Shown in pieces: positions 11,137 to 60,426 of a stretch of DNA of 64,000 nucleotides. Where the stretch lies: positions 6,473,501 to 6,537,500 of the forward strand of contig NZ_JACHMH010000001.1 in NCBI RefSeq assembly GCF_014204915.1, in the 5' to 3' direction. The notes beneath the pieces are model-generated. The model had not been told where the DNA came from. It saw only the letters and a program-made list of their open reading frames with translations, and searched no databases. How positions within the stretch are numbered: the first letter of the stretch is position 1; each line of letters opens with the position of its first letter. The translations under genes and the position numbers were made by a program. This DNA is from Crossiella cryophila. GTDB taxonomy: Bacteria > Actinomycetota > Actinomycetes > Mycobacteriales > Pseudonocardiaceae.

Positions 11137-12300
11137 TTGCGACCGAACCCGATGTCCCGCCGGACCCTGCTGCACGGCCTGACCGGCCTGGGCGCCTTCG
11201 CCCTCGTCTCGGCCTGCTCGAACCCGGACTCCCCCGCCCCCTCGAGCACCCCCAGCGGCACACCGGAGAAGGCGGCCGAACCCCCGTCCCGCCGGTTCGG
11301 CGCCGAGTGGGAGCCCCACGCCCGCACCTTCATGTCCTGGCCCGCCTCCACCGGCATCTGGGGTGAGGACCTGGGCGGGGTGCGCGCGGACATCGCCCGC
11401 CTGGCCCAGGCCATCGCCGGGTTCGAGCCGGTGGTGCTGCTGGCCAGGCCGGAGCAGGCCGAGGCCGCGCAACGGGCCTGCGGCAAGGACGTCGAGGTGG
11501 TGCCGATCCCGGTGGACGACCTGTGGGCCAGGGACACCGTGCCGGTCTTCGTCGAGGAGGGCGGCAAGGTCTCCGGGGTGGACTTCCACTTCAACGGCTG
11601 GGGCAAGAAGCAGCAACACGACCGGGACGGCAAGGTCGCCGCCGCGGTGCTGGCCAAGTACGGCGTTCCCGGGGTGTCCACCCCGCTGGTCGGCGAGGGC
11701 GGCTCGTTCGAGACCGACGGCCAGGGCACCCTGATGGTGACCGAGAGTTCGATGGTCAACGACAACCGCAACCCAGGGCTGAGCCGCGACCAGATCGAGG
11801 CCGAACTGAAGAAGGCCCTCGGCGTGCGCAAGGTGATCTGGTTCGCCGGGGTACGCGGCGAGGACATCACCGACGCGCACGTGGACTCCCTGGTCCGCTT
11901 CGCCGCCTCCGGCGTGGTGCTGCTGGACCAGGCCGCCCCCGACACCCCACCGGACTCCTGGTCCCGCTCGGCGGCCCAGGCCAAGACCGTGCTCAAGGAC
12001 GCCACCGACGCCAACGGCAAGAAGCTGGAGGTGGTGGAACTCGTCCAGCCCGACCCGGACCAGGTGGCCGGTTACCGCGACACCAGCGTGATCTCCTACG
12101 TCAACTTCTACGTGGCCAACAAGGCGCTGTTCGTCCCCCGCTTCGGCGACCGCCAGGCCGACGACCGGGCCCAGCAGGTGCTGCGCGAGCACTTCCCCGG
12201 GAGGGAGATCGTGCCGGTGGCGATCAACAACATCGCGGGCGGGGGCGGCGGGATCCACTGCGCCACGCATGACCAGCCGGGGGTGCCGGAGGCCCGCTGA
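11137..12300 (+). CDS. Exported agmatine deiminase-like lipoprotein
   Basis: A 387-aa protein of the agmatine deiminase/peptidyl-arginine deiminase (PAD_porph) family, which hydrolyses guanidino groups. The catalytic cysteine is C375 in GGGIHCATHDQP, with family segments EWEPHARTFMSWP, DDLWARDTVPVF, FHFNGWG and GEGGSFETDG. Residues 1-27 carry twin arginine in SRRTLLHG, a hydrophobic stretch and a lipobox ending ALVSAC, so it should be a Tat-exported lipoprotein, unlike the usual cytoplasmic enzyme. I chose TTG at 11137 because GGAGAGAG lies seven bases before it; ATG at 11152 is the alternative. The palindrome at 11083-11096 probably controls it. Confidence 0.88.
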   Translation: MRPNPMSRRTLLHGLTGLGAFALVSACSNPDSPAPSSTPSGTPEKAAEPPSRRFGAEWEPHARTFMSWPASTGIWGEDLGGVRADIARLAQAIAGFEPVVLLARPEQAEAAQRACGKDVEVVPIPVDDLWARDTVPVFVEEGGKVSGVDFHFNGWGKKQQHDRDGKVAAAVLAKYGVPGVSTPLVGEGGSFETDGQGTLMVTESSMVNDNRNPGLSRDQIEAELKKALGVRKVIWFAGVRGEDITDAHVDSLVRFAASGVVLLDQAAPDTPPDSWSRSAAQAKTVLKDATDANGKKLEVVELVQPDPDQVAGYRDTSVISYVNFYVANKALFVPRFGDRQADDRAQQVLREHFPGREIVPVAINNIAGGGGGIHCATHDQPGVPEAR

Positions 12301-14173: not shown

Positions 14174-16498
14174 ATGGGAAATCCGCCTCGGCAGGCAGCG
14201 GCGCCCGACCAGACCGGCAAGGGTGTGGTGGTCGGTGTGGTGGACAGCGGGATCGACGTGCACCACCCCGCGTTCCGCAACGGCCCCACCGGGCCCACCC
14301 GCATCGTGCGACTGCTCGACCAGGTGATCACGACCCGGCAGACCATCGGCCACGACGGCCCGGTCGGGCCGGGGTCCACGGTGCGGTTCAGCTGGACGGT
14401 GCCCGGCGCGCCGCAGAAGTTCCAGACCGACGTGCTGGCGATTCCGCTGACCAAGGAGACGTTGCAGGCCCAGCTCACCCAGCCCGGCCGGATCCCGGCC
14501 GCCGATGTGCAGGTGAGCGGTGGCCCGTTCCCCGACCAGGATCTGGTCATCGACTTCGTCGGTCGCTACGCCGCGACCGGCTTCGACCCGTACAACCTCG
14601 ACTCGGTCGGTGTGCAACCCGGCGGCACGAACTGGACGCCCACCATCAAGTTCGGCCGCGAGTACACCCAGCAGGAGATCGACAAGGCGCTGACCGACCG
14701 GGTGGACCCGTTCTACTCCAGGGACGCCGCCTCGGGGCACGGCACGCACGTGATGGGCATCGCCGCGGGCAGTTCGGTGGAACTGGACGACTCCTCCAGC
14801 GCCGACACCGTGGTGGGCATCGCCAAACAGGCCGATCTGGTTGCCGTGCGCACCAGTCTCGGCGACGACGACGAGATCGTCGAGGCCATCCGGTTCATCC
14901 TGGACCAGCCGTGGCGAGCACCCGGCACCCTGGCCAAACCCGCCGTGGCCAACCTGAGCATCGGCGGCAGTGACGGTCCGCACGACGGCACCAGCAGGCT
15001 GGAACGGGAGCTGGACAAGCTGGTCGTGGGCACCAAAGGCCGGGTGATCGTGGTGTCCGCGGGCAACGAGGCGGACAAGGTCGACCCCGAGGACGACGTC
15101 TACCTCAAGAGCAAGCAGCAGCCCAGGGGCGGCATGCACACCGTGGGCACGGTGCCTGCCAACACCGAGAACAAGCACACCATCATCGTGCCCGACGACC
15201 ACGACAAACTGCTGGAGCTGCACGTCTGGTACGCCGGTCCCGGCCGGATCTCGCTGGACCTGGCCGTTCCGCTGCCCGGCGGCGCCGCCGGCCGGTTCCC
15301 CGGGTTCGGGCCCACCCTGGCCACGCCGATCGTGCCCGGCACCGGTCCCGACCCGGCCAACGGGAAGTTCCCGGATCCGCCGCCGGTGGCGGTCACCCTG
15401 GCCGGGCACGCCGTGCAGGCCTCCTCCACGATCAGCAACCCCACCAGCGGCAAACAGCACATCTGGCTCAAGGTCCGGCCCCGCGCCAACGGCACCGTGC
15501 AGGCCGGGAACTGGCTGCTGGTGTTGCGGCAACTGCAGAACGCCAGCACCCCGTACCACATCTGGGGCATGTACACCGGGCAGGACCGGCACTTCCTGTT
15601 CGAGTTCGGCAAGCAGGATCCCACCACCACGGTGGAGAACCCGGGCACCGCGCACAACGTGATCACCGTCGGCGCCTACCACGGTCCCACCGGCACCAGG
15701 GGCACCTTCTCCGGGCGCGGCCCCACCACCGACCCCCGGACCGTCCCCAAACCCGATGTGAGCGCGCCGGGAATCGGCATCCTCTCCGCCAAGGCGCTCG
15801 CCCGCGGCAACGGCAAAGGGCGCTACGTCGAACTCAGCGGCACCAGTCAGGCCGCCCCCTACGTGACCGGCGTGGTCGCGCTCATGCTGGAGGCCAACAA
15901 GAACCTCTCGCACGAGCAGATCGCCCGCTTCCTCAGGGAGACCTGCGACAAGCCGGACGGCGTGTCCGACCCGCCGCCGGCGGACAGCGGCTGGGGCGCG
16001 GGCAAGGTCAACGCGGAGAAGGCGGTGAACAAGGCCAAGGAGAGCGCGGGCACGGCGCTGGCGGACGAGCCGCTGGTGCTGCCCACCGCGGCCTACGTCA
16101 CCGCCCAGGAACCGGTGACCGAGTTGCTGGCGGCGTTGCGGGCCAGGGTGGAGCACACCGAGGCCGGGCGGTTGCTTGGCAAGTTGATCGGCACCCACGC
16201 GCCGGAGATCCAGCGCCTGATCCACCTCCACCGGCGGCTGCTGGTGGCCTGGCTGCGGCTGCACGGACCGCAGCTGGTGCGGCTGGCACTGCACAGCGAA
16301 CAGTGCCACCGGATCCCGATTCCGGCGCGGCTGGGCGGCAAGCCGGTGGCGGCGGGGCTGGCCCGGTTGCTCGACGAGCTGATCCCGTTCGCCGGTCCGG
16401 AACTGCGGGCCGACATCGCGCAGTACCGGGAGTTCGTGCTCGCCGTGCCCGGGGTGCCAGCCGACGACTACGACCAGCTGCCCCGGAATGAGGCGTGA
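14174..16498 (+). CDS. S8 (subtilisin-like) serine protease, first gene of the six-gene block
   Basis: A 774-aa protease from the ATG at 14174, chosen for a GGGGGAGG site about nine bases upstream; a TTG at 14117 would add 19 residues. The catalytic triad is complete: Asp in VVGVVDSGID (residue 24), His in SGHGTHVMGIAAG (189) and Ser in LSGTSQAAPYVTG (558). Large insertions separate the triad, including about 370 residues between His and Ser. No signal peptide and no obvious propeptide are seen. Residues about 630-774 are a helical extension of unknown role. The stop overlaps the next ATG, so it is coupled to the DUF6603-like gene and may process proteins made by the block. Confidence 0.9.
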   Translation: MGNPPRQAAAPDQTGKGVVVGVVDSGIDVHHPAFRNGPTGPTRIVRLLDQVITTRQTIGHDGPVGPGSTVRFSWTVPGAPQKFQTDVLAIPLTKETLQAQLTQPGRIPAADVQVSGGPFPDQDLVIDFVGRYAATGFDPYNLDSVGVQPGGTNWTPTIKFGREYTQQEIDKALTDRVDPFYSRDAASGHGTHVMGIAAGSSVELDDSSSADTVVGIAKQADLVAVRTSLGDDDEIVEAIRFILDQPWRAPGTLAKPAVANLSIGGSDGPHDGTSRLERELDKLVVGTKGRVIVVSAGNEADKVDPEDDVYLKSKQQPRGGMHTVGTVPANTENKHTIIVPDDHDKLLELHVWYAGPGRISLDLAVPLPGGAAGRFPGFGPTLATPIVPGTGPDPANGKFPDPPPVAVTLAGHAVQASSTISNPTSGKQHIWLKVRPRANGTVQAGNWLLVLRQLQNASTPYHIWGMYTGQDRHFLFEFGKQDPTTTVENPGTAHNVITVGAYHGPTGTRGTFSGRGPTTDPRTVPKPDVSAPGIGILSAKALARGNGKGRYVELSGTSQAAPYVTGVVALMLEANKNLSHEQIARFLRETCDKPDGVSDPPPADSGWGAGKVNAEKAVNKAKESAGTALADEPLVLPTAAYVTAQEPVTELLAALRARVEHTEAGRLLGKLIGTHAPEIQRLIHLHRRLLVAWLRLHGPQLVRLALHSEQCHRIPIPARLGGKPVAAGLARLLDELIPFAGPELRADIAQYREFVLAVPGVPADDYDQLPRNEA

Positions 16499-19400
16499 TG
16501 ACCGCCGGAACCCTGGAACTGCTCGCCCGTGAACTCGGCGAGGCGTTGCGCCCGTTGGCCGATCGGCTCGCGCCGGAGACCCGGGAGCAGTTCCTGCTGA
16601 GCGAGCTGGGGGTGTGGGCGCCGGGCGGACTGGGCAACGCGGCCGGGGCCATCGGCACGGTGGTGGTGCAGGCCGGTGGGCTGGCGCCGATCGTGCAGCG
16701 GCTGGCCGGGGCGATCAACTCCGGGGACGCCCCCGCGATCCTCGCCGAGGGTGTGACGCTGCTCGGGGCGATCAAGTCCACGCTGAGCGCGGTGGACGCG
16801 CTCGGTCCGGCGCTGGAATCGGTGGTGTCCGGGGCTGCCGGGCTCACTCCGGCGCAGAAGCAGCGGCTGGTCCGGGAGGTCAGGGCGCTGCCCAAGCGGC
16901 TGATCGACTACGCCGCGGTCACCCACCTGGAGCGCACCAACCAGACCCTGGCCGACCTGCTGGCCGTGCTGGGCATCGTGGACCGGGTGGTGGTGCCTTC
17001 CGACCCGGCCGATCCGACCGTGGTGCCGGTGCGCTACCGGGTGCTGCACTTCGACCGGCTGCTCAAGCTGGTCACCGATCCGGCGACCATGCTGCGGGAG
17101 GCATTCGGCCTTGGCGAGCCGGACTTCACCGGCTCCGAGCTGTTCGTCCGGCTGGCCGACTACCTGGCCGCCCAGCACCGCGGCTTCCAGCACCTGAGGT
17201 TCCCCGACGGCACCCGCGGTTTCCAGGCCGAGGGCAGCACACTGGCCGTGGACCGGGGCACCACGCCACCCTCGCTGCGCCTGGAGACCCAGGCCCAGAC
17301 CACCGCCGACTTCACCCACACGGTGGAACTCGGTCCACTGTGGACACTGAAGTTCACCAGCCGCTCCCGGCTGACCGGCCGGATCCAGGGCCGGATCACC
17401 CCGCCGCTGGCCATCTCCATCGAACCCGGCGCCGGTGGCGCGCTGGACGCCGAGGTGTCCCTGGAGGCCAAGCGCCCCACCGACGAACCCATCGTGCTGC
17501 TCGGCCAGACCGGCGCCTCCCGGCTGGAGATCGCCCGCTTCGCGCTCGGCCTGCGGGTGCAGGCCGGTTCCGGCGCCGAACCCACCGTCCAGCTGCGCCT
17601 CGACGGCGGGCGGGTGGTCATCGACCTGTCCAAGGCGGACGGGTTCATCAAGACCATCACCCGCGGGGCGAAGATCGAGTCCGAGTTCGAGTTGCGGGCG
17701 CTGTGGTCGCCCTCGACCGGGTTGCGGCTGGAGGGCAGTGGATCACTGGACCTGGCGTTGCCGATCAATGTCGGGCTGGGGCCGATCGAGATCACCACGC
17801 TGTTCATCGGGGTGGGCATCAAGGACGACGCGGCGCCGGTGGAGTTGTCCGGGTCGTTCAAGGCCGAGCTGGGGCCGATCAAGGCGACCGTGCAACGGCT
17901 TGGGGTGATCGCGGACGTGCGGTTCCCCGGCGGTGGCGGCAACCTCGGGCCGGCGGACGTGGGCTTCCGGTTCAAGGCGCCCAACGGGATCGGGCTGTCG
18001 GTGGATGCCGGACTGATCGCCGGCGGCGGGTTCCTCTACGCCGATCCTGATCGCGGGGAGTACGCGGGCGCGCTGTCGCTGGAGTTCGCCGGGTTCCTGG
18101 AACTGAACGCGATCGGGTTGATCAGCACCCGGTTCCCGGACGGGGACAGCGGGTTCTCGCTGTTGATCGTGATCGCCACCGAGTTCGGCGGCGGCGGCAT
18201 CCAGCTCGGTTACGGGTTCACGCTGCTCGCGGTGGGTGGGCTGATCGGGCTCAACCGGGGCATGGACCTGCAGGCGCTGACCGAGGGCGTGCGCACCGGG
18301 TCGATCGAATCGGTGATGTTCCCCCAGGACGTGGTGGCCAACGCGCCGCGGATCATCTCCGACCTGCGCCGGTTCTTCCCGCCGGAGAAGGGCACCTTCC
18401 TGATCGGGCCGATGGCCAAGATCGGTTGGGGTACGCCAACACTGGTCAGTGTCTCGCTCGGGGTGATCGTGGAGATCCCGCCGGGCACCATCGCCATCCT
18501 GGGTGTGCTCAAGTGCATCCTGCCGCACAAGGCGTTGCCGCTGATCCAGGTGCAGGTGGCCTTCGTCGGCGCGTTCGAGCCGGACAAGTCACGACTGTGG
18601 TTCTACGCCCAGCTGTTCGACTCGCGCATCCTGACCATGACCATCGACGGCGGCATGGGCCTGCTGGTGGCCTGGGGCGACAACCCCGAGTTCGTGCTGA
18701 CCGTCGGCGGTTTCCACCCCTCCTTCACCCCGCCGCCGCTGCCGTTCCCGGTGCCGCCGCGGCTGTCGGTGGACATCCTGAACCAGCCCACCGCGCTGAT
18801 CCGGGTCTCCGGCTACTTCGCCATCACCAGCAACTCCGCCCAGTTCGGCGCCAAAGCCGAACTGCGCCTTGGCTTCAGCGACTTCGGCCTGCACGGGCAC
18901 CTGGCCTTCGACGCGTTGTTCCGGTTCTCCCCGTTCTCCTTCGTCATCTCCATCTCCGCCGGGGTCAGCCTCAAGGCGTTCGGGGTCGGGCTGTTCGGCA
19001 TCGATCTGCGCTTCCAGCTGGAGGGGCCCGCACCGTGGCGGGCATCCGGGCGGGGCTCGATCTCGTTGCTGTTCTTCGAGATCTCCGCCGACTTCGACAT
19101 CAGCTGGGGCGAGAAGCGGGACACCACACTGCCGCCGGTGTCCGTGCTCGAACTGCTCGGCGCCGAACTGGTCAAGACCGAGGGCTGGGAGACCCGGTTG
19201 CCCTCCGGCGGCACCCGCGCGCTGGTCACCCTGCGCACGCTGGACCCGGCCAACCCCCTGGACAACCTGGTGCTGCACCCGCTGGGCAGCCTGTTCATCC
19301 GGCAGCGGGCACTGCCGCTGGACGTGCGCATCGACAAGGTCGGCCAGCAGGCGCCCAGCGACGGCAACCGGTTCACCTTCGAGCCCAAGAAGGACAGCGG

Positions 19401-21057
19401 GCTGCGCCGGGTGGCCAGCACCGGCGACAAGTTCGCCATGGCCCAGTTCCAGCAACTCGACGACGCCGAGAAGCTGTCCCGGCCCGCCTACGAAACGCAG
19501 AACGCGGGCCTGGAACTGGCCGCGGGCGAGGCCAACCTGCTCAGCTCGCTGGTGGTGCGGCGCAGCGCGCGCTACGAGGAGATCATCACCGACAAGAAGC
19601 GCGGCATCCCAGGTGTGGCCCGGATGTCGGCGGCCGAGGCGGTGGCCACACCGGTGCGCAAACGCCTGGTGAGCGTCAGCCCGGCGGTGTTCGAGCACCT
19701 GATCGCGGGCAGTAGCACCGCCCGTTCGCCGCTCTCGGCCCAGCGGGCGGGCGAGTTGCAGCCCTTCGCCGCCGGGGAGACCGTGCGGATCCAGGACCAG
19801 CGCTACGTGATCACCAAGAAGCGGGACAACACCCAGGCGTTCCCGCCGCTGGGCGCGCCACTGCGGGAACCGGAGTTCCGCAGCCTCACCACCGCCAGGG
19901 ACGCCCTGGCCGAGTGGATCAAGGCCGACCCCCGGCTGGCGGACACGCTGCACGTCATCCCGCTGGCCGAACTCGCCGGTCCGCTGGCCGAATCCGGCAC
20001 CTGGTCGGACTCCCCCGCCGCACCCCTCGCCGTGGCCGGGGCGGGCGCGGTCCGGCTGGGCAACGGCAAGGTGCTGCTGGTCGGCGGCACCGGCTCCGAC
20101 GGCGCACCGGTGGCCGAGGCCGCGGTGTTCGACCCGATCGCGGACGCCTGGCAACCCGCCAAACCCCTGAGCACCGCCCGCGTCCAGCACACCACCACCC
20201 TCCTGGCCACCGGCCGGGTGCTGGTCGCGGGCGGCCTGGACAGCACCGGCAAGGCACTCGCATCCGCCGAGCTGTACGACCCGATCTCCGGCTCCTGGAC
20301 GACCCTGCCCGACCTCAAGGACGCCCGCGCCGGGCACACCGCGACCGCGCTGCCCGACGGCACAGCCCTGATCACCGGCGGCCGTAACACTCGCGCACTG
20401 TCCACAGTGGAACTGCTCGGCGCGGACGGCAAGTGGGCCCAGGCGAAACCCATGCTGGACGCCCGCACCGGCCACCAGACCCTGTTGCGGGACAAGACCG
20501 TGCTGGTACTCGGCGGCGCCTTCGACACCGGCGGCCCGGCCGGCGCCCGTACCAGCTGCGAGAGCTACGACCTGGCCTCCGGCACCTGGACCGCCGCCCC
20601 GGCCCTGGCCCTGCCCCGCACCGGCCACCAGGCCACCGCACTGGGCAAGCAGGTGCTGGTCACCGGCGGCGACCCGATCGCACCCCGCCTGCACGTGCCC
20701 ACTCACCTGGACCCGCCCTACCGGCCGGACGGGCTCACCAGCGTGGAAGCCCTGTCCGGCACCGCCTGGAGCACCACGGCCGCGCTGCCCGGCGGTCGCA
20801 CCGGACACCGGGCGGTGGCCCTGCGCACCGGGCGGCTGCTGGTCATCGGCGGCACCAGCCTGGCCGCCCACGGCACCGGCTTCCGCAACGTCACCGCCTA
20901 CGACCCGAACAGCGACACCTGGGTGGCCGCGGGCGCGCTGCGCACCGGACGCTGGGACGCCGCCGTGGTGGAACTGGGCGACGGCCGGGTCCTGATCATC
21001 GGCGGCCGCACCCACGGCGGCGCGATCACCGCCGCCACCGAGACCTACATCCCGTGA
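16498..21057 (+). CDS. Giant DUF6603-like protein with C-terminal kelch repeats
   Basis: A 1519-aa protein. Residues 1-130 are helical. Residues about 260-870 are a long run of glycine-rich alternating hydrophobic strands (for example GPIEITTLFIGVGIKDD, LSLEFAGFLELNAIG, IQLGYGFTLLAVGGLIGLN), which I match to the uncharacterised DUF6603 family. Residues about 870-1160 are a mixed linker. Residues about 1165-1519 are kelch repeats (LLVGGTGSDGAPVAEAAVFD, VLVAGGLDSTGKALASAELY, VLIIGGRTHGG) forming a propeller. There is no signal peptide or clear membrane helix. A GAGG site lies four bases before the ATG, which overlaps the protease stop. Role unknown; a structural or lipid/protein-binding scaffold is my inference. 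Confidence 0.75.
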   Translation: MTAGTLELLARELGEALRPLADRLAPETREQFLLSELGVWAPGGLGNAAGAIGTVVVQAGGLAPIVQRLAGAINSGDAPAILAEGVTLLGAIKSTLSAVDALGPALESVVSGAAGLTPAQKQRLVREVRALPKRLIDYAAVTHLERTNQTLADLLAVLGIVDRVVVPSDPADPTVVPVRYRVLHFDRLLKLVTDPATMLREAFGLGEPDFTGSELFVRLADYLAAQHRGFQHLRFPDGTRGFQAEGSTLAVDRGTTPPSLRLETQAQTTADFTHTVELGPLWTLKFTSRSRLTGRIQGRITPPLAISIEPGAGGALDAEVSLEAKRPTDEPIVLLGQTGASRLEIARFALGLRVQAGSGAEPTVQLRLDGGRVVIDLSKADGFIKTITRGAKIESEFELRALWSPSTGLRLEGSGSLDLALPINVGLGPIEITTLFIGVGIKDDAAPVELSGSFKAELGPIKATVQRLGVIADVRFPGGGGNLGPADVGFRFKAPNGIGLSVDAGLIAGGGFLYADPDRGEYAGALSLEFAGFLELNAIGLISTRFPDGDSGFSLLIVIATEFGGGGIQLGYGFTLLAVGGLIGLNRGMDLQALTEGVRTGSIESVMFPQDVVANAPRIISDLRRFFPPEKGTFLIGPMAKIGWGTPTLVSVSLGVIVEIPPGTIAILGVLKCILPHKALPLIQVQVAFVGAFEPDKSRLWFYAQLFDSRILTMTIDGGMGLLVAWGDNPEFVLTVGGFHPSFTPPPLPFPVPPRLSVDILNQPTALIRVSGYFAITSNSAQFGAKAELRLGFSDFGLHGHLAFDALFRFSPFSFVISISAGVSLKAFGVGLFGIDLRFQLEGPAPWRASGRGSISLLFFEISADFDISWGEKRDTTLPPVSVLELLGAELVKTEGWETRLPSGGTRALVTLRTLDPANPLDNLVLHPLGSLFIRQRALPLDVRIDKVGQQAPSDGNRFTFEPKKDSGLRRVASTGDKFAMAQFQQLDDAEKLSRPAYETQNAGLELAAGEANLLSSLVVRRSARYEEIITDKKRGIPGVARMSAAEAVATPVRKRLVSVSPAVFEHLIAGSSTARSPLSAQRAGELQPFAAGETVRIQDQRYVITKKRDNTQAFPPLGAPLREPEFRSLTTARDALAEWIKADPRLADTLHVIPLAELAGPLAESGTWSDSPAAPLAVAGAGAVRLGNGKVLLVGGTGSDGAPVAEAAVFDPIADAWQPAKPLSTARVQHTTTLLATGRVLVAGGLDSTGKALASAELYDPISGSWTTLPDLKDARAGHTATALPDGTALITGGRNTRALSTVELLGADGKWAQAKPMLDARTGHQTLLRDKTVLVLGGAFDTGGPAGARTSCESYDLASGTWTAAPALALPRTGHQATALGKQVLVTGGDPIAPRLHVPTHLDPPYRPDGLTSVEALSGTAWSTTAALPGGRTGHRAVALRTGRLLVIGGTSLAAHGTGFRNVTAYDPNSDTWVAAGALRTGRWDAAVVELGDGRVLIIGGRTHGGAITAATETYIP

Positions 21058-21082
21058 CCGGGCGCGTGAAGGGGAACATGCC

Positions 21083-22258
21083 ATGACCAGTCCCAACCCC
21101 TGGAAGAGCGTGCCGGACGCGCCCGTGGCGAGCAGCTGGAGCGGCCGCACCGACGGCGCGGTGCTGGTCACCGAGACCGGCAAACCGGACCGGGTGGTGA
21201 TCGCGGGCGGCTCGGACGGCACCGCCGCCGGGGCCCGCGCGGACACCGCCAGCTACGACAGCGGCACCGAAACGTGGACCGCGCTGGCCAAACTGACCAC
21301 CGCCCGGCGCGCGCACAGCACCACCGCGCTCACCGGCGGCCAGGTCCTGGTCATCGGCGGTATCGCGGGCGGCGGTCAGTTCCCGGCGGCCGGACTGCCC
21401 ACCGCCGAGCTGTACAACCCTGCCAGCAGCAAGTGGGAACCGGTGGTCAACCAGATGGCCGGGCCGCGCTGGGGGCACAGCGCGGTGCTGCTGAGCAACG
21501 GCAAGGTCCTGGTCACCGGGGGCAGCACCACCCGCACCGGCAACTCCGAACAGGCGCTCAACCGGGTCGAGCTGTTCGATCCGGTGGAGAAGACCTGGAC
21601 CACCAAGAAACCCATGCTGGACGCGCGCACCGGCCACGCGGCGCTGCGCCTGCCCAACGGGCACGTGCTGGTGGTCGGCGGCGCGGTGCCGATCCGGCAG
21701 GACCAGGAGGCCGCGCTGGCCTACTGCGAGGTCTACAACCCGGACGCCGACACCTGGACCGCGACCACCGGTGTGCTCGGCGAGCCCAGGGCCCAGCACC
21801 AGGCCACCCTGGTCGGCGGCAAGGTACTGGTCACCGGCGGCACCGCACCCGGCATGCGGCCCGACGGCGGTTTCGACCCGTTCAGCCGGGCCACCGCCGA
21901 ACTGTTCGACCCGACCGGCGGCACCTGGACCCCGGTGGCCCAGCCCATGCCCGGCGGCCGGGCCGCGCACCGGGCGATCGCCGTCAGCGGCAACCGGGTG
22001 CTCATCATCGGCGGCACCGGCGGGGCGCGCGGGGACACCGGGTACGCCAAGGCGTTGCTGTTCAACCTGGCCACCGGCGCCTGGGGGGACGGGGGCATCC
22101 CGGAGCAGGCCCGCTGGGACCTGGGCGCGGTGGCCCTCGCCGACGGCAAACGGGTCGTGGTCACCGGCGGCGTGGTGCGGGCCGGACTGACCGCGGCCAC
22201 GCCGGGCACCGCCGAACTCACCGCGGTCACCGAGGTGTGCACAGTGGACGGTCCGTGA
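21083..22258 (+). CDS. Kelch-repeat beta-propeller protein
   Basis: A 391-aa protein made almost entirely of about seven kelch units, each with a GG pair after a hydrophobic strand (VVIAGGSDGT, VLVIGGIAGG, VLVTGGSTTR, VLVVGGAVPI, VLVTGGTAPG, VLIIGGTGGA, VVVTGGVVRA) and a tryptophan about 20-25 residues later. One blade (KPMLDARTGH) is identical to one in the C-terminus of the preceding protein, so the two propellers are related by duplication. No signal peptide. GAAGGGG precedes the ATG. Its TGA overlaps the next ATG by one base. Likely a protein-interaction subunit of the block. Confidence 0.85.
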   Translation: MTSPNPWKSVPDAPVASSWSGRTDGAVLVTETGKPDRVVIAGGSDGTAAGARADTASYDSGTETWTALAKLTTARRAHSTTALTGGQVLVIGGIAGGGQFPAAGLPTAELYNPASSKWEPVVNQMAGPRWGHSAVLLSNGKVLVTGGSTTRTGNSEQALNRVELFDPVEKTWTTKKPMLDARTGHAALRLPNGHVLVVGGAVPIRQDQEAALAYCEVYNPDADTWTATTGVLGEPRAQHQATLVGGKVLVTGGTAPGMRPDGGFDPFSRATAELFDPTGGTWTPVAQPMPGGRAAHRAIAVSGNRVLIIGGTGGARGDTGYAKALLFNLATGAWGDGGIPEQARWDLGAVALADGKRVVVTGGVVRAGLTAATPGTAELTAVTEVCTVDGP

Positions 22259-25200: not shown

Positions 25201-25431
25201 CCCAAGGGTTTCCTCAACCTGTCGGCCACCCCGACGGTGCCGTTGTCGGCGCAGCTCAGCGATGTGCGCGACGACGACGAGAAGGTGCCGCAACGCCTCG
25301 AAGACGTGCAGCTGCCGCCCTGGAGCGCCGGGCTCAGCTCCGCCGAGTTCGCCTACATCCTCTTCCAGGCCCCGGTGCTGATGGCCGTACATGCACAGGA
25401 GATGCTGCCCGATGACGACGCCACTCAGTAA
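22258..25431 (+). CDS. 1057-aa conserved-looking protein of unknown function
   Basis: I do not recognise this protein. It begins SGYTFLPWLRAGLATHIDED, has no signal peptide or membrane segment, and contains tryptophan- and proline-rich stretches such as WITNFEPNYLAHIEFYEEDF and FPWRYSPAKHSDAIGKVRPW in the first 130 residues. A central region (about 520-640) is basic and low in order (MRRATRPASRLMRKLFPPPV). Residues about 770-900 have a well-ordered look (LPMYQALRDLDVEAFVPSLG, LTDQAYIEAFMVGLNHELAR, LLWREYPTDQRGTPFRQFW). It overlaps the kelch gene by one base and the next gene by 20 bases, so it should be made in fixed proportion to its neighbours. Confidence 0.8.
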   Translation: MSGYTFLPWLRAGLATHIDEDAVVLNSRISIPVELEIKGEPLNPSDPSKPFKPVSRNIALYGPGDVIGVDGRAISRVEPLPWITNFEPNYLAHIEFYEEDFPWRYSPAKHSDAIGKVRPWLALVVLAGASSPGEGDEFTDITVPGAPLPAITVLDPAKTLPPQDELGAWAHVHVNGDLSGAVLAPAKGGPLAALERVLRENPDLACSRLVCPRHLLPNTGYHAFLVPAFENGRLAGLGLTPTAEAPVPSWSGTGIGGPLPYYHRWFFQTGTAGDFEYLVRILEPRFADPRIARRDIDVSRSPGYDLPPILAPTRGLLKLGGALQTDRPLDIFDRWAEAFPHPFQEKLAELINLADDYLTTEPVRANAGLTALPEPADPVITPPLYGRWPALTSRLLTGRNGEPLVPDPANPNWLHTLNLDPRYRVAANFGTRIVQDRQEEFMAAAWEQVGEVLEGNARIRAAQLHREVGHSLQQKHFEPETREEQLLDATPRPGRKLTWTAPVHTRVTAEGEGTDAAPAERVAVGFRVARSRIAGAPVSPAMRRATRPASRLMRKLFPPPVPGALDAAGPSAEELLPRMDDPAGVTAAVPKRKPVSLITPKDVEGAPVLLDADPNDPPPDPVPGLPKNNLFKLRDLNDLETTPAGDRDSDEALNFKKALSSLYQGWQGSFAGARVPERPPLGVTGTAQSTLDNIRSDSTVLRRLQDSVKVPGRLTGETPRLTEALAYPRLDLPMYQALRDLDVEAFVPSLGLVPPNTITLLLTDQAYIEAFMVGLNHELARELLWREYPTDQRGTPFRQFWKPIGQPGQSREATYDIKPIHQWSATAKLGENDARDAGLGRPQEENLVLVIRGELLKKYPTAAIYAHKARWQTDPVTGEILKDQERRLVGLADPNRPDPVTEIRLPIYEAKVEPDLYLLGFPLSEAEAEGRTTDPNEDGSGWFFVIKERPGDPRFGLDENKQPDVEVWNDLSWPDVDNSVPPKGFLNLSATPTVPLSAQLSDVRDDDEKVPQRLEDVQLPPWSAGLSSAEFAYILFQAPVLMAVHAQEMLPDDDATQ

Positions 25432-28400
25432 CCGGCACCCGGTCCTGCTCGGCCCGGTCCGGCTGGAAACCCGGTTCACCGCGACGGAACTGCTCATCCG
25501 GATCTACCCGGACGAGTGGGCGGTGGACAAGTTCGAGCCCAAGGTCAGCCCGGCCGAACTCGACGCCCTGGACGCCTACTGGACCGCGCTGTGGCGGGCG
25601 GGCAGCAGCACGGTGGCCCAGCAGGCCGCCTGGCGCGAACTGGCCGGGCGGATCCCGCCGGGCCGGGCCACCTGGCTGCTCACCGAACGCAAGCCCGCCA
25701 ACGAGACCGAGCGGCCCAGCACCGCGCCCGCCGGTGCGGTGGTGCTGCCGGTTGTCACCAGCACACCGGTGCCCGCGGCGGACCGTCAGCCCACCATCAC
25801 CTACTGGACCGCGATCTGGCAGGCGCACGGCGACCGGGAAAAGCTCCGCGCGGCCGATCGCGCACTGATCACCGCGGTCGGTTCGCCAAGGGCGGCCACC
25901 ATCCGGTCCCGGCGACCGTCCGGAGTGGACGGTGCCGAGCTGAGCCCGAACAACACGGTGGTGGTGGCCTTCCTGGTGCTGGCCCCGCACCCGCCGGAGA
26001 AGATCGCGGCCAAGTCCTGGACCACCCCGGCCACCGCGCGGCTGCTGCCGGACCGGTTCACCGTGCTCGCCCTGGACGGTGACAGCCAGATCTTCGAGCT
26101 GACCACCAACCCGGTGCTCGGCCCGTTCGCGGTCAGCCCCGACCCCACCGCCCAGGACAAGCCGAAGATCAACGAGGACACCGGCGCACTGCACGTGCCG
26201 GAGGCGCTGAAGTGGCTGACCAACTTCGAGGAGGCGCACCGGCGCGGCCTTGGCGTGCGGATCGGCCGCACCACCCGGATCGACGCCGGAATCCCGACCC
26301 TGCTGGTGTACGGGCTGCGGGAGAACCCGGACGCCGCAGCCACAGCCGCGGCGCTGACCCAGCAGCTGCAACGGCAACTGCGCAGTACCTCCGGGCTCAG
26401 CCTGCTGGCCCAGGGCACCCCGACCAACAACTCCGAGCAACTCCCGGCCGGTCCCGGCGATCAGGCCGAGGCGGCCCGGCGCGCGGCGAGCGCCAGCTTC
26501 GCCGCCGCCGACTGGAAGTCCACAAAGGACGGACCGCAGCTCGCCGGACTGCTGGGCCTCGATCTGACCCAGTTGCCCGGACTGCCCGGCGCGGACGGCA
26601 CCGACCAGGCCGAGGCCAAGGCGGCCAACATCGCGCTCTGGCCTGCCACCTGGGGCAGTTTCCTGCGGCACACCCTGCACCCGCTGCTCGACGACGAAGC
26701 CGTGGCCAGGACCAGGGAGTTCTTCGTCCGCAACGTCTCCGGCCGCGGCCCGCTGCCGGTGCTGAAGATCGGCCGCCAGCCCTACGGCATCGTGCCGACC
26801 ACCGACTTCCGCGCACTGAGCTGGCCCGCGGCCAACACGCACCGGCACGCGCTCAAGAAGGTCCTGGACACCGCGGCCGCCGACTGGGACCGGGTGGCCG
26901 CGGAGAAAGTCCAGTACCTGCACAAGCCCGGCGGCGACCCGCACCAGAAGCTCCTGGACATCCTGGCCCTGCACCCGGGTTCGGCGGAGTACCACCAGCG
27001 GTACGCGCAAAGCGTGGAGGACCTGTTCAACCGGGCCAACCTGGGTGCGGCCGGGGCGGGCATCCTGGACGCGTTGCGCCGCCTGCAGCTGGCCCCGCCC
27101 ATCCAGGCCCTGCTCACCAAACTCGGCGCCACCAACCCGGATCCCGACCTGCTGCGCCGGTTGTTCGTGGACAGCCAGCACCCGCTGCTGGCCCCGCTCG
27201 TCGACGACCGGCCACTGTCCGAAGAGGACCCCATCCGGCCCTACGACCTCAAGGGCCGCAACTACCTTGGCTGGCTGGCCGCCAACGCCAAGGCCGACCT
27301 GACCGCGATCCGCAACGAGACCGGCTTCGCCGGGACCGCGCCGGCCGCACTGCTGTACTACCTGGCCCGGCACGCGGTGCTGCTCGGCTTCGCCGACGCC
27401 GCCCGCCGCCTGGCCATCCGCGCCGGGGTGGCCGACCCCACCGACCTGGCCGACCGGGACCCGCTGTTCGTGCACGTCAAGCACTTCAGCACCGGAACCG
27501 GCGTGCTGGACAGCGAGAGCCGGTACCGCCGCCTGTACTCCAGCGATCCGCTGATCACCGGCAGCACCGAGGTCACCGTGGCCAAGCACATCGGCACCGT
27601 GCTGGCCACCAACCCGGACACCGCCGCGCTCAAGGAACAACTCGACGCGGTGGAGGTCCTCGCGGCCACCCCGACCGCCCGGTTGGAACGGGTGCTGGCC
27701 GAACACCTCGACCTGGCCACCTACCGGCTGGATGCCTGGCGGCTGGGCCTGGCCACCGAACGCCTCACCGAACTGCGTGCCCAGCCAGGGGCCGCGCAGG
27801 GCATCCACCTGGGCGCCTACGGCTGGCTGGAGAACGTCAAACCCGACCTGTCGCCCACCGACAACGGCGGCTACATCCACACCCCCTCCCCCGCGCAGGC
27901 CCGCACCGCGGCGGTGCTGCGCTCGGGCTACCTGGCCAACCGCACCACCGAACGCGGCGAGTTCGCGGTCAACCTCAGCTCCGACCGGGTCCGGGTCGCC
28001 CTGGAACTCCTGGACGGCCTGCGCCAGGGCCAGTCCCTTTCCGCGCTGCTGGGCTACCGGTTCGAGCGCGGCCTGCACGAAGGCCACCCCGAACGCGAAC
28101 TGGACAAGTACCTGGCCCCGCTGCGGGCGGCCTTCCCACTGCGCTTCGGCAAACTCGACCAGCCCGCTGCTGGCGCGCCGCCGGAGTTCGCCGAGCACGA
28201 GGCGCGGGTGGTCATCGACGGCCTGGAACTGCACCGCACGGTCACCAGGGCCACCGACCCGGCGCACCGGGTCTATCCCTTCGGCAAGAAGGGACTGCCG
28301 CCGAACCCGCCCAACGACGACCTGATCGCGATCCACGCCGAGGTGGAGAACCTGCGCAACCTGCACGACGCGCTGGCCGACCTGGCGGTGGCCGAGGGCA

Positions 28401-30547
28401 CCCACCAGGCCCTGCTCGGCAACCACGAACGCGCCGCGGCCACCCTGGACTCCTACGCCAAGGCCGGGTTCCCGCCCGAGCCCGCGATCGTGGAGACCCC
28501 GCGCAGCGGCACCACGCTCACCCACCGCTTCGCCCTGCACCTGCGGCCCAACCTCTCCCCCGGCCTGTCCGCCACCCCGCGCGCCCAGGCCGAACCCGCG
28601 GTCAACGACTGGCTGCCGCAACTCCTGCCACTGCCGGACAAACTGGTCGCCCAGGTCACCTGGTTCGACCCGATCCGCAAGCGGAACGACGGCCGCGCGG
28701 TGTCCATGAGCGACCTCGGCCTGCAACCCATCGATCTACTGTGGACGGTCCGCCCGGTCGGCGAGACCGCCACCCGGTCCGATCTGGAGGACCGGATCCT
28801 GGGTGCGGTGTTCAAGGCCGACACCCCGCGCCCGGACGTCCGGCCGAAGATCGAGTTCACCACCAGGGTCGCCGGGCGGGTCACCTTCTTCGAGCTGTCC
28901 CCGCTGATCAACGCGCTGCGCACACTGCTCACCACGGCCCGCCCGGTCCGGCCGACCGACCTGGTGCCCGGTGCGGGCGTGGCCACCGTGGACCGCACCG
29001 CCGACGCGGCGATCAACGTGCCGAGGGAACGTCCGGCCGCGGTCCGCAAGGCCCTTGGCACCCTGCTCACCAGCACCACCACCTACGGCACCGACCTCGG
29101 TGCGCTCTACCCACCCGCCGGGCCGAGAACCGCCGACCTGCTCAAGAACATCGACACCTTCCTCATCCGCTACGCCGACCTCATCGGCACCGCGGGCCGC
29201 TTCGGCCTGGTGCGCAGTGGCTGGGGCGAGCTGACCCTGTGGCGGGGCACGCTGTTCGCCGAACTCCTGGCCGCCCTGGACGGCACCGCCAAACGCCTGG
29301 ACCCGGTGCTCAAGGAAGCCGACGTGCTGATCGCCAAGTACGACGGACTGCCCGCCACGGCCACCGACGAGGAGCGATACCGGTTGCTGGAACAGGCCGA
29401 ACGCCTGCTCAGCACCACCGTCACCAGCCCGCGCCCGGACCGGCCGCGCACCCTGCGCACCACCGTGGGCACCCGCCGGAACACCTTCAAGTCCACAATG
29501 GACGCCATCGCGCGCACCGCGAACACCACCAAGGTCACGTTGAGCGGCCTGTTCGCCGAGATCGCCGCCCTGCCACCACTGGCCGCTATCGACCCGGTTG
29601 GCCTGGACCTGACCCCGTTCCAGCTGCGGGTGGTCGAGTTCGGCCGCGACCTGCTGGCCAGGGCCGCCCAGCTGAAGAAGGACATCGAGGCGCGGAACAC
29701 CCTGGCGGACAAGGCCCTGCTGGCCTACGACGCCGCGATCCCCGGACCGGACCGGGTCACCGCCGCCATCGACGCGCTCAAGGCCATGCTCGGCGAGGAC
29801 GTCCTGGTGGTGCCCGAGTTCACCCCGTCCGAGGACCTGGTCGACCAGTGGCGGGACGCCCACTTCGACAGCGGCGAACTCCTGGAACACCTGGCAGCCC
29901 GCAAGTTCCCGCTGGACGACTGGCTGCACGGCGTGGCCAGGGTGCGGGAACAGCCGCGCCGCTGGGAGAAGGCGGTCGCCCTCGGCGATGTGCTCTTCAG
30001 CGGCCCCGGCCTGCTCGGCATCCCCTCCTGGCGGGAACCCGCGCTCACCCCGATCCAACTGCCCTACCGGGAGAACGACTCCTGGCTCGGCCTGGAGTTC
30101 AAAAAGGACAGTGCGGGCAAGCCGGTGGCGATCACCGAGGACAAGGTGCTCTACACCGCGCACTACGCCACCGGCGCGCTGCTCGGCCAGACCAGGGCCG
30201 GGCTGCTGCTGGACGAGTGGACCGAGGTGATCCCGGCCGAGACCGAGACCACCGGCATCGCCCTGCACTACGACGGCCCGGACTCCGAACCACCGCAGGC
30301 CATGCTGCTCGTCGCCCCGCCGGTGGTCACCGACCCGCCGCAGAACTGGCAGCGGGCGCACCTGGTCAACGCCATCCGGGACACCTTCGCCATGGCCCGT
30401 AGCCGCGCGGTGGAACCCGCCCAGCTCGACGACACCGCGTACGCGCAGCTGCTGCCGGCCACCGTGATGTCCGCGACCCGGCAGCAGATCACCATCAGCA
30501 CCGATCTCGCGCTCGCCAACCTGCGCTGGAAGGCCGACCATGACTGA
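25412..30547 (+). CDS. 1711-aa protein of unknown function
   Basis: The largest protein of the block, with no signal peptide, membrane helix or enzyme motif that I can name. It opens with a compact domain (HPVLLGPVRLETRF, TELLIRIYPDEWAVDKFEP). Other conserved-looking stretches are LKIGRQPYGIVPTTDFRAL (about residue 455), IHLGAYGWLENVKPDLSP (about 800) and LSALLGYRFERGLHEGHPE (about 880). The middle is helix-rich. The ATG at 25412 lies inside the end of the preceding gene (20-base overlap), and the stop overlaps the next ATG by eight bases, both signs of translational coupling. A structural subunit is likely; that is inference. Confidence 0.8.
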   Translation: MTTPLSNRHPVLLGPVRLETRFTATELLIRIYPDEWAVDKFEPKVSPAELDALDAYWTALWRAGSSTVAQQAAWRELAGRIPPGRATWLLTERKPANETERPSTAPAGAVVLPVVTSTPVPAADRQPTITYWTAIWQAHGDREKLRAADRALITAVGSPRAATIRSRRPSGVDGAELSPNNTVVVAFLVLAPHPPEKIAAKSWTTPATARLLPDRFTVLALDGDSQIFELTTNPVLGPFAVSPDPTAQDKPKINEDTGALHVPEALKWLTNFEEAHRRGLGVRIGRTTRIDAGIPTLLVYGLRENPDAAATAAALTQQLQRQLRSTSGLSLLAQGTPTNNSEQLPAGPGDQAEAARRAASASFAAADWKSTKDGPQLAGLLGLDLTQLPGLPGADGTDQAEAKAANIALWPATWGSFLRHTLHPLLDDEAVARTREFFVRNVSGRGPLPVLKIGRQPYGIVPTTDFRALSWPAANTHRHALKKVLDTAAADWDRVAAEKVQYLHKPGGDPHQKLLDILALHPGSAEYHQRYAQSVEDLFNRANLGAAGAGILDALRRLQLAPPIQALLTKLGATNPDPDLLRRLFVDSQHPLLAPLVDDRPLSEEDPIRPYDLKGRNYLGWLAANAKADLTAIRNETGFAGTAPAALLYYLARHAVLLGFADAARRLAIRAGVADPTDLADRDPLFVHVKHFSTGTGVLDSESRYRRLYSSDPLITGSTEVTVAKHIGTVLATNPDTAALKEQLDAVEVLAATPTARLERVLAEHLDLATYRLDAWRLGLATERLTELRAQPGAAQGIHLGAYGWLENVKPDLSPTDNGGYIHTPSPAQARTAAVLRSGYLANRTTERGEFAVNLSSDRVRVALELLDGLRQGQSLSALLGYRFERGLHEGHPERELDKYLAPLRAAFPLRFGKLDQPAAGAPPEFAEHEARVVIDGLELHRTVTRATDPAHRVYPFGKKGLPPNPPNDDLIAIHAEVENLRNLHDALADLAVAEGTHQALLGNHERAAATLDSYAKAGFPPEPAIVETPRSGTTLTHRFALHLRPNLSPGLSATPRAQAEPAVNDWLPQLLPLPDKLVAQVTWFDPIRKRNDGRAVSMSDLGLQPIDLLWTVRPVGETATRSDLEDRILGAVFKADTPRPDVRPKIEFTTRVAGRVTFFELSPLINALRTLLTTARPVRPTDLVPGAGVATVDRTADAAINVPRERPAAVRKALGTLLTSTTTYGTDLGALYPPAGPRTADLLKNIDTFLIRYADLIGTAGRFGLVRSGWGELTLWRGTLFAELLAALDGTAKRLDPVLKEADVLIAKYDGLPATATDEERYRLLEQAERLLSTTVTSPRPDRPRTLRTTVGTRRNTFKSTMDAIARTANTTKVTLSGLFAEIAALPPLAAIDPVGLDLTPFQLRVVEFGRDLLARAAQLKKDIEARNTLADKALLAYDAAIPGPDRVTAAIDALKAMLGEDVLVVPEFTPSEDLVDQWRDAHFDSGELLEHLAARKFPLDDWLHGVARVREQPRRWEKAVALGDVLFSGPGLLGIPSWREPALTPIQLPYRENDSWLGLEFKKDSAGKPVAITEDKVLYTAHYATGALLGQTRAGLLLDEWTEVIPAETETTGIALHYDGPDSEPPQAMLLVAPPVVTDPPQNWQRAHLVNAIRDTFAMARSRAVEPAQLDDTAYAQLLPATVMSATRQQITISTDLALANLRWKADHD

Positions 30548-32417
30548 ACCCGTGCCGTTCGACTTCCCGCGCGACCTCGGCAACCGCAGCGAACCCACCG
30601 TCGGCGTGTGGAACCGGCTGGAAGGCCGTCCGCGCACCACCGACTTCGACCGGGCACTGCGCGCGGAGATCCGCGATCCGCTGTGGCTGCTCACCCGGCA
30701 GTGGCAGCTCGGCGAGTTCCAGGCATCCGACGGCGGCTCCCCGGTCACCGCCTCCTACACCGTGCAGGCCTCCAGTGTCAGCCGGTTCAAGCCCTTCGAC
30801 GGCAACCCGGTGGAACTGCCTGCGGAACAACCGCTGCCGGTGGAGGCACTGGCCGAACGGCGGGCGCTGCGCTTCACCTCGGGCACCGAACGGGTCTCCT
30901 TCGACCTGCGCCTGGCCATCGGGCGGCGCTGGTTCAAACTGCTCGCCACCCTGCCGCTGGGCCTGGGCGAACTGCTCGCCTCCTTCCGGGCCCAGTACGT
31001 CAAGCTGTACCCGATCGCGCTGCCGGATCCGTTGCAGGACAAGGACAGTCCGCGACTGGCCCATCCCGAGGTGTGGGCCAGCATGCAGGCCATGGCCGGG
31101 CGTTACCTGGACGGCTACCAGCTCTACGAGCACATCAAGTACCGCGGCGGCACCGCCTACGACGGCATCGAGGAACTGCTCAACCTGCACAAGCAGCCCA
31201 TCACCCGGCTGGGCCTGGAACTGCGGGACTGGTTCGACGCGCTGATCCAGCAACCGGCCAACGTCCAGCCCGAACTGCGACCCACCGGCGAGGACTGCTG
31301 GGACGGCACGCATCTGGAACACAACTTCTCCGTCGGCACCACCCTCGCGGGCGGTCGGCAGAAGACCCTCACCGCCCGCGAGTACCCCGGCGGCACCCTG
31401 GACTGGCACGCCTTCTCCGTGGACGCCAAGCTCCCGCTCGGTGGCAGCCGACCGCCGAAACCCTTCCGCCGCACGGTGTTCCCGGCCCCGGTGCGCTACG
31501 CCGGGATGCCGCTGCCGCGCTGGTGGGCGGTGGAGGACGGCCGCACCAACTTCGCCGCGGTCACCCCGGACAGCACCGACCTGGCCCGGCTGATCTTCCT
31601 GGAATTCGCCCTGGTCTACGGCAACGACTGGTACCAGCTGCCCTGCGACCTGCCGGCCGGATCCCTGGCCACCCTGGAAAATGTGAGCGTCACCGACACC
31701 TTCGGCATCACCACGGTGGTCGAGCCGGCCAACGCGGGCCCGGACCAGGACTGGCGGCGGTGGTCCATGTTCAGCCTGGACACCCTCGGCGCCGAACCGG
31801 TGGCCGCCGACACCAGCCTGCTGCTGCCCGCCAGCGTGCCCAAGATCGCCGAGGGCCCGGCGCTGGAGGAGGTGGTGCTGCTGCGCGATGAGAACGCGAA
31901 CCTGGTGTGGGGCGTGGAACAGACCGTGCGGATGGCCACCGGCGAACCCCGCCGCGGCAGCGAGATCGCCGCCGAATCGGTGGCCTGGCGGCAACGCCAC
32001 CAGCCAACCCAGCCGCCGGGTCCGCCACTGGCCCCGGTGTCCTATGAGGTGATGAACACCGTGCCGGAGCACTGGATCCCGTTCGTACCGGTGCACCAGG
32101 ACAGCACCCGGCGCTCCATCCACCTGCAACGGGCCGCCCTGCCCAGCGCGATCCGCCAGGCCGACCCGACCCAGCCGCGCGCGGTGGTACGGCCACGCAC
32201 CGACCTGTTGCGCGAGGGTCTGGACCGGGGTGAGCCGTACTTCGTGAACGAGGAGGAGGTCACCCAGACCGGCACCCGGCTCGCGTTGTCCTTCCAGCGC
32301 ACCCGCTGGCGGGACGGGCGGGTGGTGGTGTGGCTGGGCGTGCGGCGGGGCACCGGGCGCGGTCAGGGGTCCAGCGGGTTGCGGTTCGACTCGGTGATCG
32401 ACAGCCCGGCGCCTTAG
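30540..32417 (+). CDS. 625-aa protein of unknown function, last gene of the block
   Basis: I do not recognise the family. The N-terminal region carries a striking stretch, RDPLWLLTRQWQLGEFQASD followed by GGSPV (about residues 45-70). Later segments include LLNLHKQPITRLGLELRDWF, FPAPVRYAGMPLPRWWAVED and EFALVYGNDWYQLPCDLPAG, rich in aromatic residues like the 1057-aa protein. The C-terminus is basic. No signal peptide, membrane helix or catalytic motif is visible. It overlaps the 1711-aa gene by eight bases. A 399-base gap follows, so the block ends here. Confidence 0.8.
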   Translation: MTEPVPFDFPRDLGNRSEPTVGVWNRLEGRPRTTDFDRALRAEIRDPLWLLTRQWQLGEFQASDGGSPVTASYTVQASSVSRFKPFDGNPVELPAEQPLPVEALAERRALRFTSGTERVSFDLRLAIGRRWFKLLATLPLGLGELLASFRAQYVKLYPIALPDPLQDKDSPRLAHPEVWASMQAMAGRYLDGYQLYEHIKYRGGTAYDGIEELLNLHKQPITRLGLELRDWFDALIQQPANVQPELRPTGEDCWDGTHLEHNFSVGTTLAGGRQKTLTAREYPGGTLDWHAFSVDAKLPLGGSRPPKPFRRTVFPAPVRYAGMPLPRWWAVEDGRTNFAAVTPDSTDLARLIFLEFALVYGNDWYQLPCDLPAGSLATLENVSVTDTFGITTVVEPANAGPDQDWRRWSMFSLDTLGAEPVAADTSLLLPASVPKIAEGPALEEVVLLRDENANLVWGVEQTVRMATGEPRRGSEIAAESVAWRQRHQPTQPPGPPLAPVSYEVMNTVPEHWIPFVPVHQDSTRRSIHLQRAALPSAIRQADPTQPRAVVRPRTDLLREGLDRGEPYFVNEEEVTQTGTRLALSFQRTRWRDGRVVVWLGVRRGTGRGQGSSGLRFDSVIDSPAP

Positions 32418-44706: not shown

Positions 44707-44710
<4 letters not shown>
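43946..44710 (+). CDS. Nitrilase-superfamily amidohydrolase
   Basis: A 254-aa carbon-nitrogen hydrolase with an intact triad: E43 in [11 protein letters not shown]109 in [11 protein letters not shown] and C143 in [11 protein letters not shown]. The size and the [13 protein letters not shown] region fit small-amide hydrolases. Start is GTG with GAGG five bases upstream, directly after the amine oxidase stop. Its likely role is hydrolysis of the amide made by the amine oxidase to give the free omega-amino or guanidino acid for PKS loading. The TAG stop forms a CTAG shared with the stop of the opposing PKS gene. Confidence 0.85.
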
Positions 44711-60375
<15,665 letters not shown>

Positions 60376-60426
60376 GGGTGGTTCTCTCCTGGTGGGTGGC
60401 GGCGGGTTGATCGTGCCGGGTTCCGG

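Follow-up and report, generated by a model that had tools for sequence, protein, structure and literature searches.

A conserved operon of giant proteins with an exchangeable enzyme gene in Crossiella cryophila and other bacteria and archaea

What kind of system is encoded by six tightly packed genes, of which three specify large proteins without a known family? The question is raised by a block at positions 14174-32417, on the forward (+) strand, of a 64,000-nucleotide stretch of Crossiella cryophila DNA (contig NZ_JACHMH010000001.1, positions 6,473,501 to 6,537,500; hereafter the window), which belongs to a genome of 10.06 Mb assembled as a single contig. An earlier note, made from the letters of this DNA, had seen in the block one multi-subunit assembly provided with a protease for its maturation. 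Here, database searches and phylogenetic analyses revealed that the block belongs to a horizontally spread operon, in which four core proteins are inherited together in fixed order, and that the type of enzyme encoded directly upstream has been swapped repeatedly while the core stays. Since homologues keep the gene order in other phyla, the six-gene block is real and far beyond chance. No described system was matched by it.

A core of four genes in fixed order

All six genes of the block are intact open reading frames (ORFs) on the + strand without internal stops, and their products total 6077 amino acids (aa), close to the 6,100 aa first estimated. P1 (14174-16498, 774 aa) combines an S8 subtilase domain (Pfam Peptidase_S8, expectation value (E) 4e-43), with D, H, and S catalytic motifs beginning at residues 23, 188, and 556, and a C-terminal tail domain designated P1C (residues 644-764); its position is called the slot below. 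P2 (16498-21057, 1519 aa) is composed of a helical N-terminus, a DUF6603 beta-meander (E 2e-127, residues 425-991), and C-terminal kelch repeats from about residue 1185 according to Pfam; with 426 bits for a gathering score of 27, it is a member of DUF6603 (PF20248). P3 (21083-22258, 391 aa, Kelch_6 E 6e-37) is a stand-alone kelch protein. The two giants P4 (22258-25431, 1057 aa) and P5 (25412-30547, 1711 aa, zero cysteines) and the smaller P6 (30540-32417, 625 aa) are core proteins without a known family. Four junctions overlap by 1, 1, 20, and 8 bases, within the range of 1-20 bases given before, and the fifth, between P2 and P3, is a gap of 25 bases rather than 24. The 1-base overlap of P1 and P2 extends to 4 bases with the alternative GTG start of P2 at 16495. 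GC content at third codon positions is 0.91-0.94 across all six genes.

When an alignment of P5 was searched against 84,980 species genomes, 417 stretches were obtained, of which 349 are relatives. The 80 best P5 matches were analysed, a selection that favours near relatives and P5-bearing loci. In 67 of these 80 best P5-bearing loci, the genes for DUF6603, P4, P5, and P6 all occur in this order; another 11 loci are truncated at the end of a contig. The two true exceptions are locus L088, without DUF6603, and locus L082, without P6 at the locus, the P6 match in that genome lying at another place. P4 is present in 77 of the 80. The view of the earlier note that these genes form one linked system, not scattered ones, is thus borne out by neighbourhood conservation across phyla. 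Loci were distributed among ten bacterial phyla: Actinomycetota (47), Bacteroidota (15), Pseudomonadota (5), Cyanobacteriota (4), Chloroflexota (3), Acidobacteriota (2), and one each in Myxococcota, Bacillota, Nitrospirota, and Aminicenantes (the label of the record). The full set was found in nine of them, the Myxococcota locus being contig-cut. On haloarchaeal plasmids, three of four loci hold all four core genes in order (DUF6603 being cut by the end of the stretch in L101); in L103, DUF6603 and P5 are each split over two ORFs, and P4 is present without a P6 match.

Surveys of genome sets gave a similar picture. Of 100 genomes, 7 encode P6, that of the window included, and the seven loci in the six other genomes all keep the DUF6603-P4-P5-P6 order. 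Among 396 Actinomycetota genomes, DUF6603 occurs in 12, again with that of the window, and these include some fragmented assemblies; P4 is found in 10 and P6 in 8 of the 12. P6 is rare elsewhere, with 6 of 296 genomes in the phylum of Chitinophaga and 1 of 292 in the cyanobacterial phylum (centre genome counted). Divergent DUF6603 genes without the rest of the core also exist; such proteins are encoded by L105 and L106, in genomes G073 and G340, which have no P4 or P6 match. The nearest named relative carrying the block, among the matches listed, is Crossiella sp. S99.2, whose P5 is 94% identical. In L108, L147, and L149, a single ORF of 1947-2101 aa encodes P5 and P6 as a fusion. A WD40 propeller gene lies upstream in L108, and L147 looks alike by eye. 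At L014 (8194-12797), P4 occupies two frames that overlap and continues into P5, and may be frameshifted or fused.

Evidence for mobility came from the P5 tree (67 rows, quick search, LG+G4), on which close cores occur in different genera (L022, L039, and L093, with end branches of 0.008-0.034), suggesting recent transfer. In an empty-site search, the conserved YigZ gene was found to adjoin the block in two Crossiella genomes; the stretch around YigZ in three other Crossiella genomes contains no block, and the other flank was not found there. A phage origin was rejected, as a search of viral contigs with P5 gave no relatives. One record, MT835531 (L102, labelled 'Bacteriophage sp.' and unverified), carries P4-P5-P6 beside LexA-like and other ORFs that look bacterial by eye, and seems to be bacterial DNA.

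The same tree separates the core from its accessories. The P3 kelch gene is present in 37 of the 67 rows and absent in 30, a distribution accounted for by a single change. Kelch, which had been counted among the parts of the giant system, is thereby ruled out as a core component and is the property of one actinobacterial clade.

An exchangeable enzyme gene upstream of the core

Clustering of flanking ORFs identified a sole neighbour recurring at a fixed place, namely the gene directly upstream of DUF6603. This slot gene, taken to be the longest ORF on the same strand that terminates close to the DUF6603 start, was retrieved from 65 of the 80 loci, the other 15 being cut, unresolved, or, for L020, a near copy of the window. 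In 35 actinobacterial loci, its end lies between -61 and +41 bases from the start of DUF6603. The 65 genes comprise 19 S8, 16 trypsin-like, 15 M64, and 3 galactose-oxidase-like members, one each of M14, phospholipase D (PLD), PhoD, and tyrosinase, and 8 without a class. The M64, S8, and galactose-oxidase-like assignments were extended by clustering from scanned members to the rest, and the trypsin-like class rests on sub-threshold Pfam matches in two of three scanned members, clustering, and catalytic motifs recognised by eye. PhoD or PhoD-like slots also occur in the haloarchaeal L100 and in L110, below the Pfam cut-off in the latter. A run of four cysteines (CCCC) was seen in the trypsin-like proteins of L069, L072, L086, and L089.

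With eight classes among the 59 rows that have one, the P5 tree requires at least 22 changes of slot class (minimum possible 7). With S8, trypsin-like, and M64 slots alone, 16 changes were counted (minimum 2; mean of shuffles 24.5; none of 200 shuffles as low), and S8 (9 changes) and M64 (7 changes) slots are each clustered on the tree. Even when only starred branches are considered, 9 changes are needed for S8, 10 for trypsin-like, and 7 for M64 slots, and sister cores on such branches carry different slots (L072 and L058, L070 and L052). Genome G059 has two copies of the system, one with an S8-like slot protein ending in P1C and one in which P1C follows a trypsin-like N-terminus, as judged by eye. 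The P1C tail, about 120 residues long, forms the end of all 16 trypsin-like slot proteins, of 6 of the 19 S8 slot proteins, and of the window protease, and was not found in the other slot classes.

These exchanges bear directly on the maturation role first proposed for the protease. A single assembly with the S8 enzyme dedicated to its processing would agree with the translational coupling of the window protease to the giants; because the position switches class at least 22 times, and is occupied by other peptidases or by non-proteases in other loci with the same core, such a role, which we consider very unlikely, is rejected. A single multi-subunit assembly, the other part of that proposal, may nonetheless be what the core proteins form.

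Beyond the slot, no neighbour was comparably constant. The commonest downstream families were found in 8, 7, and 6 of the 80 loci, on either strand and at variable distances; an antisense ORF overlapping P6 in 7 loci was set aside from these counts.

A putative enzyme-carrying assembly

A four-giant core kept in order beside a neighbour that changes enzyme class is the evolutionary signature expected of an effector system. The reading favoured here, which we hold at somewhat less than an even chance, is an undescribed assembly of giant proteins, not of phage nature, that carries an exchangeable enzyme and acts outside its producer. Core proteins would assemble in the cytoplasm without Sec signals and physically carry the enzyme, which P1C, where present, may dock onto the core. 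The DUF6603 beta-sheet, amphipathic and 640 residues long, could contact lipid, or enclose or wrap a partner, and in the clade that possesses them the kelch propellers might add a binding module. After lysis or non-classical release, the loaded particle would deliver its enzyme to cell-envelope or extracellular polymers of other cells. Without an ATPase, the particle would be expected to be a pre-assembled or one-shot device rather than an energised pump.

A broader proposal, more doubtful but still conceivable, is an effector-carrying machine common to bacteria and archaea, unrelated to phage tails or known secretion systems and accepting at least eight enzyme classes, with the four giants as the vehicle, the DUF6603 sheet as the part contacting lipid or cargo, and the one-gene slot as the means of loading. 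With a core order that spans nine bacterial phyla and haloarchaea, and with P4, P5, and P6 lacking relatives in the family and structure libraries searched, such a device would represent a new kind of enzyme delivery or enzyme display, in which different enzymes might be taken up through a docking tail. The complete gene set covers about 18 kb and is genetically tractable, which makes the question directly testable.

Profile searches of P4, P5, and P6, suggested in the earlier note, returned no Pfam family above the cut-off. The best match of P5 was sub-threshold (EAD8, E 0.061), and P4 had no Pfam or NCBIfam match at E ≤ 1. None of the three matched NCBIfam or PADLOC, PHROGs gave E 0.11 or worse (P4, E 0.11; P6, none), no PDB relative was detected by sequence or profile at E ≤ 1, and no hidden homology was found among the three proteins. 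The DUF6603 protein produced eleven weak PDB matches by sequence or profile (E 0.006-0.7), mostly to designed helical proteins and all on the helical N-terminus. DUF6603 is unnamed in the literature searched (preprints and most subscription-journal papers being outside its scope), where searches by domain combination also retrieved nothing relevant.

Structure models were made for P6 and the DUF6603 protein. The P6 model has a predicted local distance difference test score (pLDDT) of 81, and its fold matched neither the PDB nor viral models at E ≤ 0.001. Two P6 segments, residues 20-33 and 36-62, fall below pLDDT 50 yet hold the invariant E28, D46, Q54, Q56, and E59, as expected if this region folds on a partner. 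The DUF6603 protein (pLDDT 79, predicted template-modelling score (pTM) 0.46) was modelled as a helical N-terminus followed by a near-continuous beta-meander (residues 232-871), with a beta-amphipathicity z of 8.2. Its nine Foldseek matches in the PDB at E ≤ 0.001 were outer-membrane barrels, ushers, and the ApoB100 beta-belt; SlpA, FimD, LptD, and ApoB100 appear to share with the modelled protein, locally, a long amphipathic antiparallel meander. In contrast to outer-membrane barrels, DUF6603 proteins almost never carry signal peptides, as judged by hydropathy, and occur in Actinomycetota, Bacillota, and haloarchaea, and the fold matches reach a template-modelling (TM) score of 0.20 at most.

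On the favoured reading, the enzyme would probably act outside the cell. Arguments for this are the low cysteine content of the core, the peptidoglycan-binding domains found in the slot proteins of L017 and L150, and the BGTF and lamin-tail annotations that P5 and P6 carry on two haloarchaeal plasmids. In loci with a GC content of 0.56 or less, cysteine makes up 0.24% of core residues vs 0.86% in downstream ORFs, which may include a few non-genes, and is lower in the core in 19 of 19 loci. In the window, the corresponding values are 0.165% for the six genes and 0.84% for 13 control genes, of which a DNA ligase contributes 17 of the 52 cysteines and one has none. Excerpts of published work describe the exclusion of cysteine from extracytoplasmic proteins of Gram-positives (PMC4628341) and place PhoD family enzymes outside the cytoplasm (PMC4223295).

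Several points weigh against the enzyme-carrying assembly. Export, assembly, and target are steps that we infer. Low core cysteine also fits a large cysteine-poor assembly inside the cell, many secreted proteins of Streptomyces do contain cysteines according to an excerpt of PMC10433416, and slot proteins have an ordinary cysteine content of 0.89%. With TM scores of 0.20 or less for all nine fold matches and a pTM of 0.46, barrel, belt, and groove are indistinguishable in the DUF6603 model. Docking through P1C is not general, since 43 of the 65 slots have no recognisable P1C, and trypsin-like slots (12 changes) are not clustered on the P5 tree, 66 of 500 shuffles being as low. A crude N-terminal hydropathy threshold is passed by 5 of 66 slot proteins, so that some may be exported on their own. 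The flanking-ORF clusters revealed neither an immunity gene nor a release gene, slot-specific immunity genes not having been sought; the most frequent downstream family that would be plausible for immunity is the one present in 8 of the 80 loci.

Two rival explanations draw on part of the same evidence. In the first, an intracellular defence or stress complex, the giants would detect intruders and activate an exchangeable effector enzyme, which would then attack components of its own cell. Patchy spread, horizontal movement, and a swapped effector class would all suit such a role, as would the lack of any matched propeptide family in the scanned S8 slots and of a signal peptide, by hydropathy, in the window protease. 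The S8 part of P1 also matches the generic subtilase (E 2.5e-22) and IetS (E 5.5e-9 and weaker) models of PADLOC. P1 thus shares a subtilase catalytic domain with IetAS and with the mycosin of type VII secretion systems; it scores, however, 81.2 bits for an NCBIfam mycosin cut-off of 278.75, and the block differs from IetAS in having no IetA-like ATPase. P2, P4, P5, and P6 have no PADLOC match, to IetS or otherwise, and none of the six window proteins contains a Walker A motif, which is sporadic in homologues elsewhere (1 of 66 rows for P6, 2 of 59 for P4, 1 of 55 for P2, and 4 of 67 for P5). Peptidoglycan-binding domains on two slots also argue against an intracellular role. Tyrosinase, galactose-oxidase-like, M14, M64, and PhoD proteins are unusual as defence effectors. 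On balance, defence appears unlikely.

The second rival is a surface or extracellular degradative complex, a scaffolded enzyme array serving polymer feeding or the remodelling of the producer's own matrix. In its favour, most slot enzymes are hydrolases or oxidases of types with extracellular substrates, the core is poor in cysteine, and a second slot-family gene lies further upstream of the slot gene in L045, L071, L076, and L098. Against it, the core has almost no signal peptides: a hydrophobic N-terminus was found in none of the 59 P4, 7 P5, and 66 P6 rows and in 2 of the 55 P2 rows, and the six window proteins are likewise negative, P2 included, in agreement with the earlier note, by a simple hydropathy screen that had no known secreted protein as a positive control. 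Nor does an LPxTG motif occur near the C-terminus in 132 aligned P4, P5, and P6 sequences. The degradative complex is given a low probability.

Relation to known machines and flanking genes

Among described systems, extracellular contractile injection systems (eCIS) offer a close parallel in evolutionary behaviour: according to excerpts of PMC8213781 and PMC11297309, these operons are patchily and horizontally spread among environmental bacteria and archaea, and combine conserved structural genes with a toxin cargo that varies. In the block, an enzyme is exchanged beside a conserved core, which may also carry it physically. It differs from eCIS, tailocins, and type VI secretion systems in lacking any sheath, tube, or baseplate family (Pfam and NCBIfam searches of the six proteins; PHROGs searches of P2, P4, P5, and P6). 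P2, P4, P5, and P6 have no strong relation to viral families except via kelch, and the P6 fold has no viral match. Identity with a contractile injection system, already doubted when the block was first described, was therefore rejected.

The block might still supply accessory payloads to a contractile injection system whose genes lie elsewhere in the genome. Sheath-family (PF04984) genes are present in 15 of the 20 core-carrying genomes tested, 11 of them over the cut-off, and in Actinomycetota a sheath gene occurs in 5 of 12 DUF6603 genomes vs 32 of 384 others (Fisher p 0.003). The association drops to p 0.057 (3 of 10 vs 34 of 386) when only P4-bearing DUF6603 genomes are counted; 5 of the 20 core-carrying genomes have no sheath match, and a sheath match is present in 3 of 3 Crossiella genomes that lack the core. 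In Gelidibacter genome G527 (L155, 14650-16212), a 520-aa sheath-family ORF was located some 3 kb upstream from the slot gene. It stands alone, however, on the other strand and next to CRISPR-like genes, has a signal-peptide-like start, and is accompanied by no further contractile component recognisable by eye among the ORFs of 38 kb. All other sheath genes over the cut-off are on other contigs or at least 100 kb away. A payload set is thus most unlikely, and shared ecology is the simplest reading of the co-occurrence, eCIS being enriched in environmental microbes according to the same excerpt (PMC8213781). In the genome of the window, sheath-family matches were located elsewhere, at G000:C1:7091791-7092213, 4492766-4493032, and 9610105-9610524.

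The shells of Tc and Rhs toxins resemble the block in consisting of large proteins rich in beta structure, in having a partner that contains a propeller, and in the variation of their toxic enzyme. In contrast to them, the six proteins have no RHS/YD family match, the variable enzyme of the block is encoded by a separate upstream gene whose shared part is C-terminal, and no Tc or Rhs structure appears among the 50 listed fold matches of DUF6603.

Upstream of the block, the window encodes a protein with WbsX and GH99-like matches and DUF5648 (9103-11049) and a peptidyl-arginine-deiminase family protein (11137-12297; PAD_porph, E 1e-108). Downstream, on the - strand (44707-63987), a 1186-aa type I polyketide synthase with KR, DH, and carrier domains lies beside a same-strand ORF of 5222 aa. 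In the sister genome G001 (L154, 2466-5330), a flavin adenine dinucleotide (FAD) monooxygenase gene and a major facilitator superfamily (MFS) gene form a pair that adjoins the block and is inverted relative to the window.

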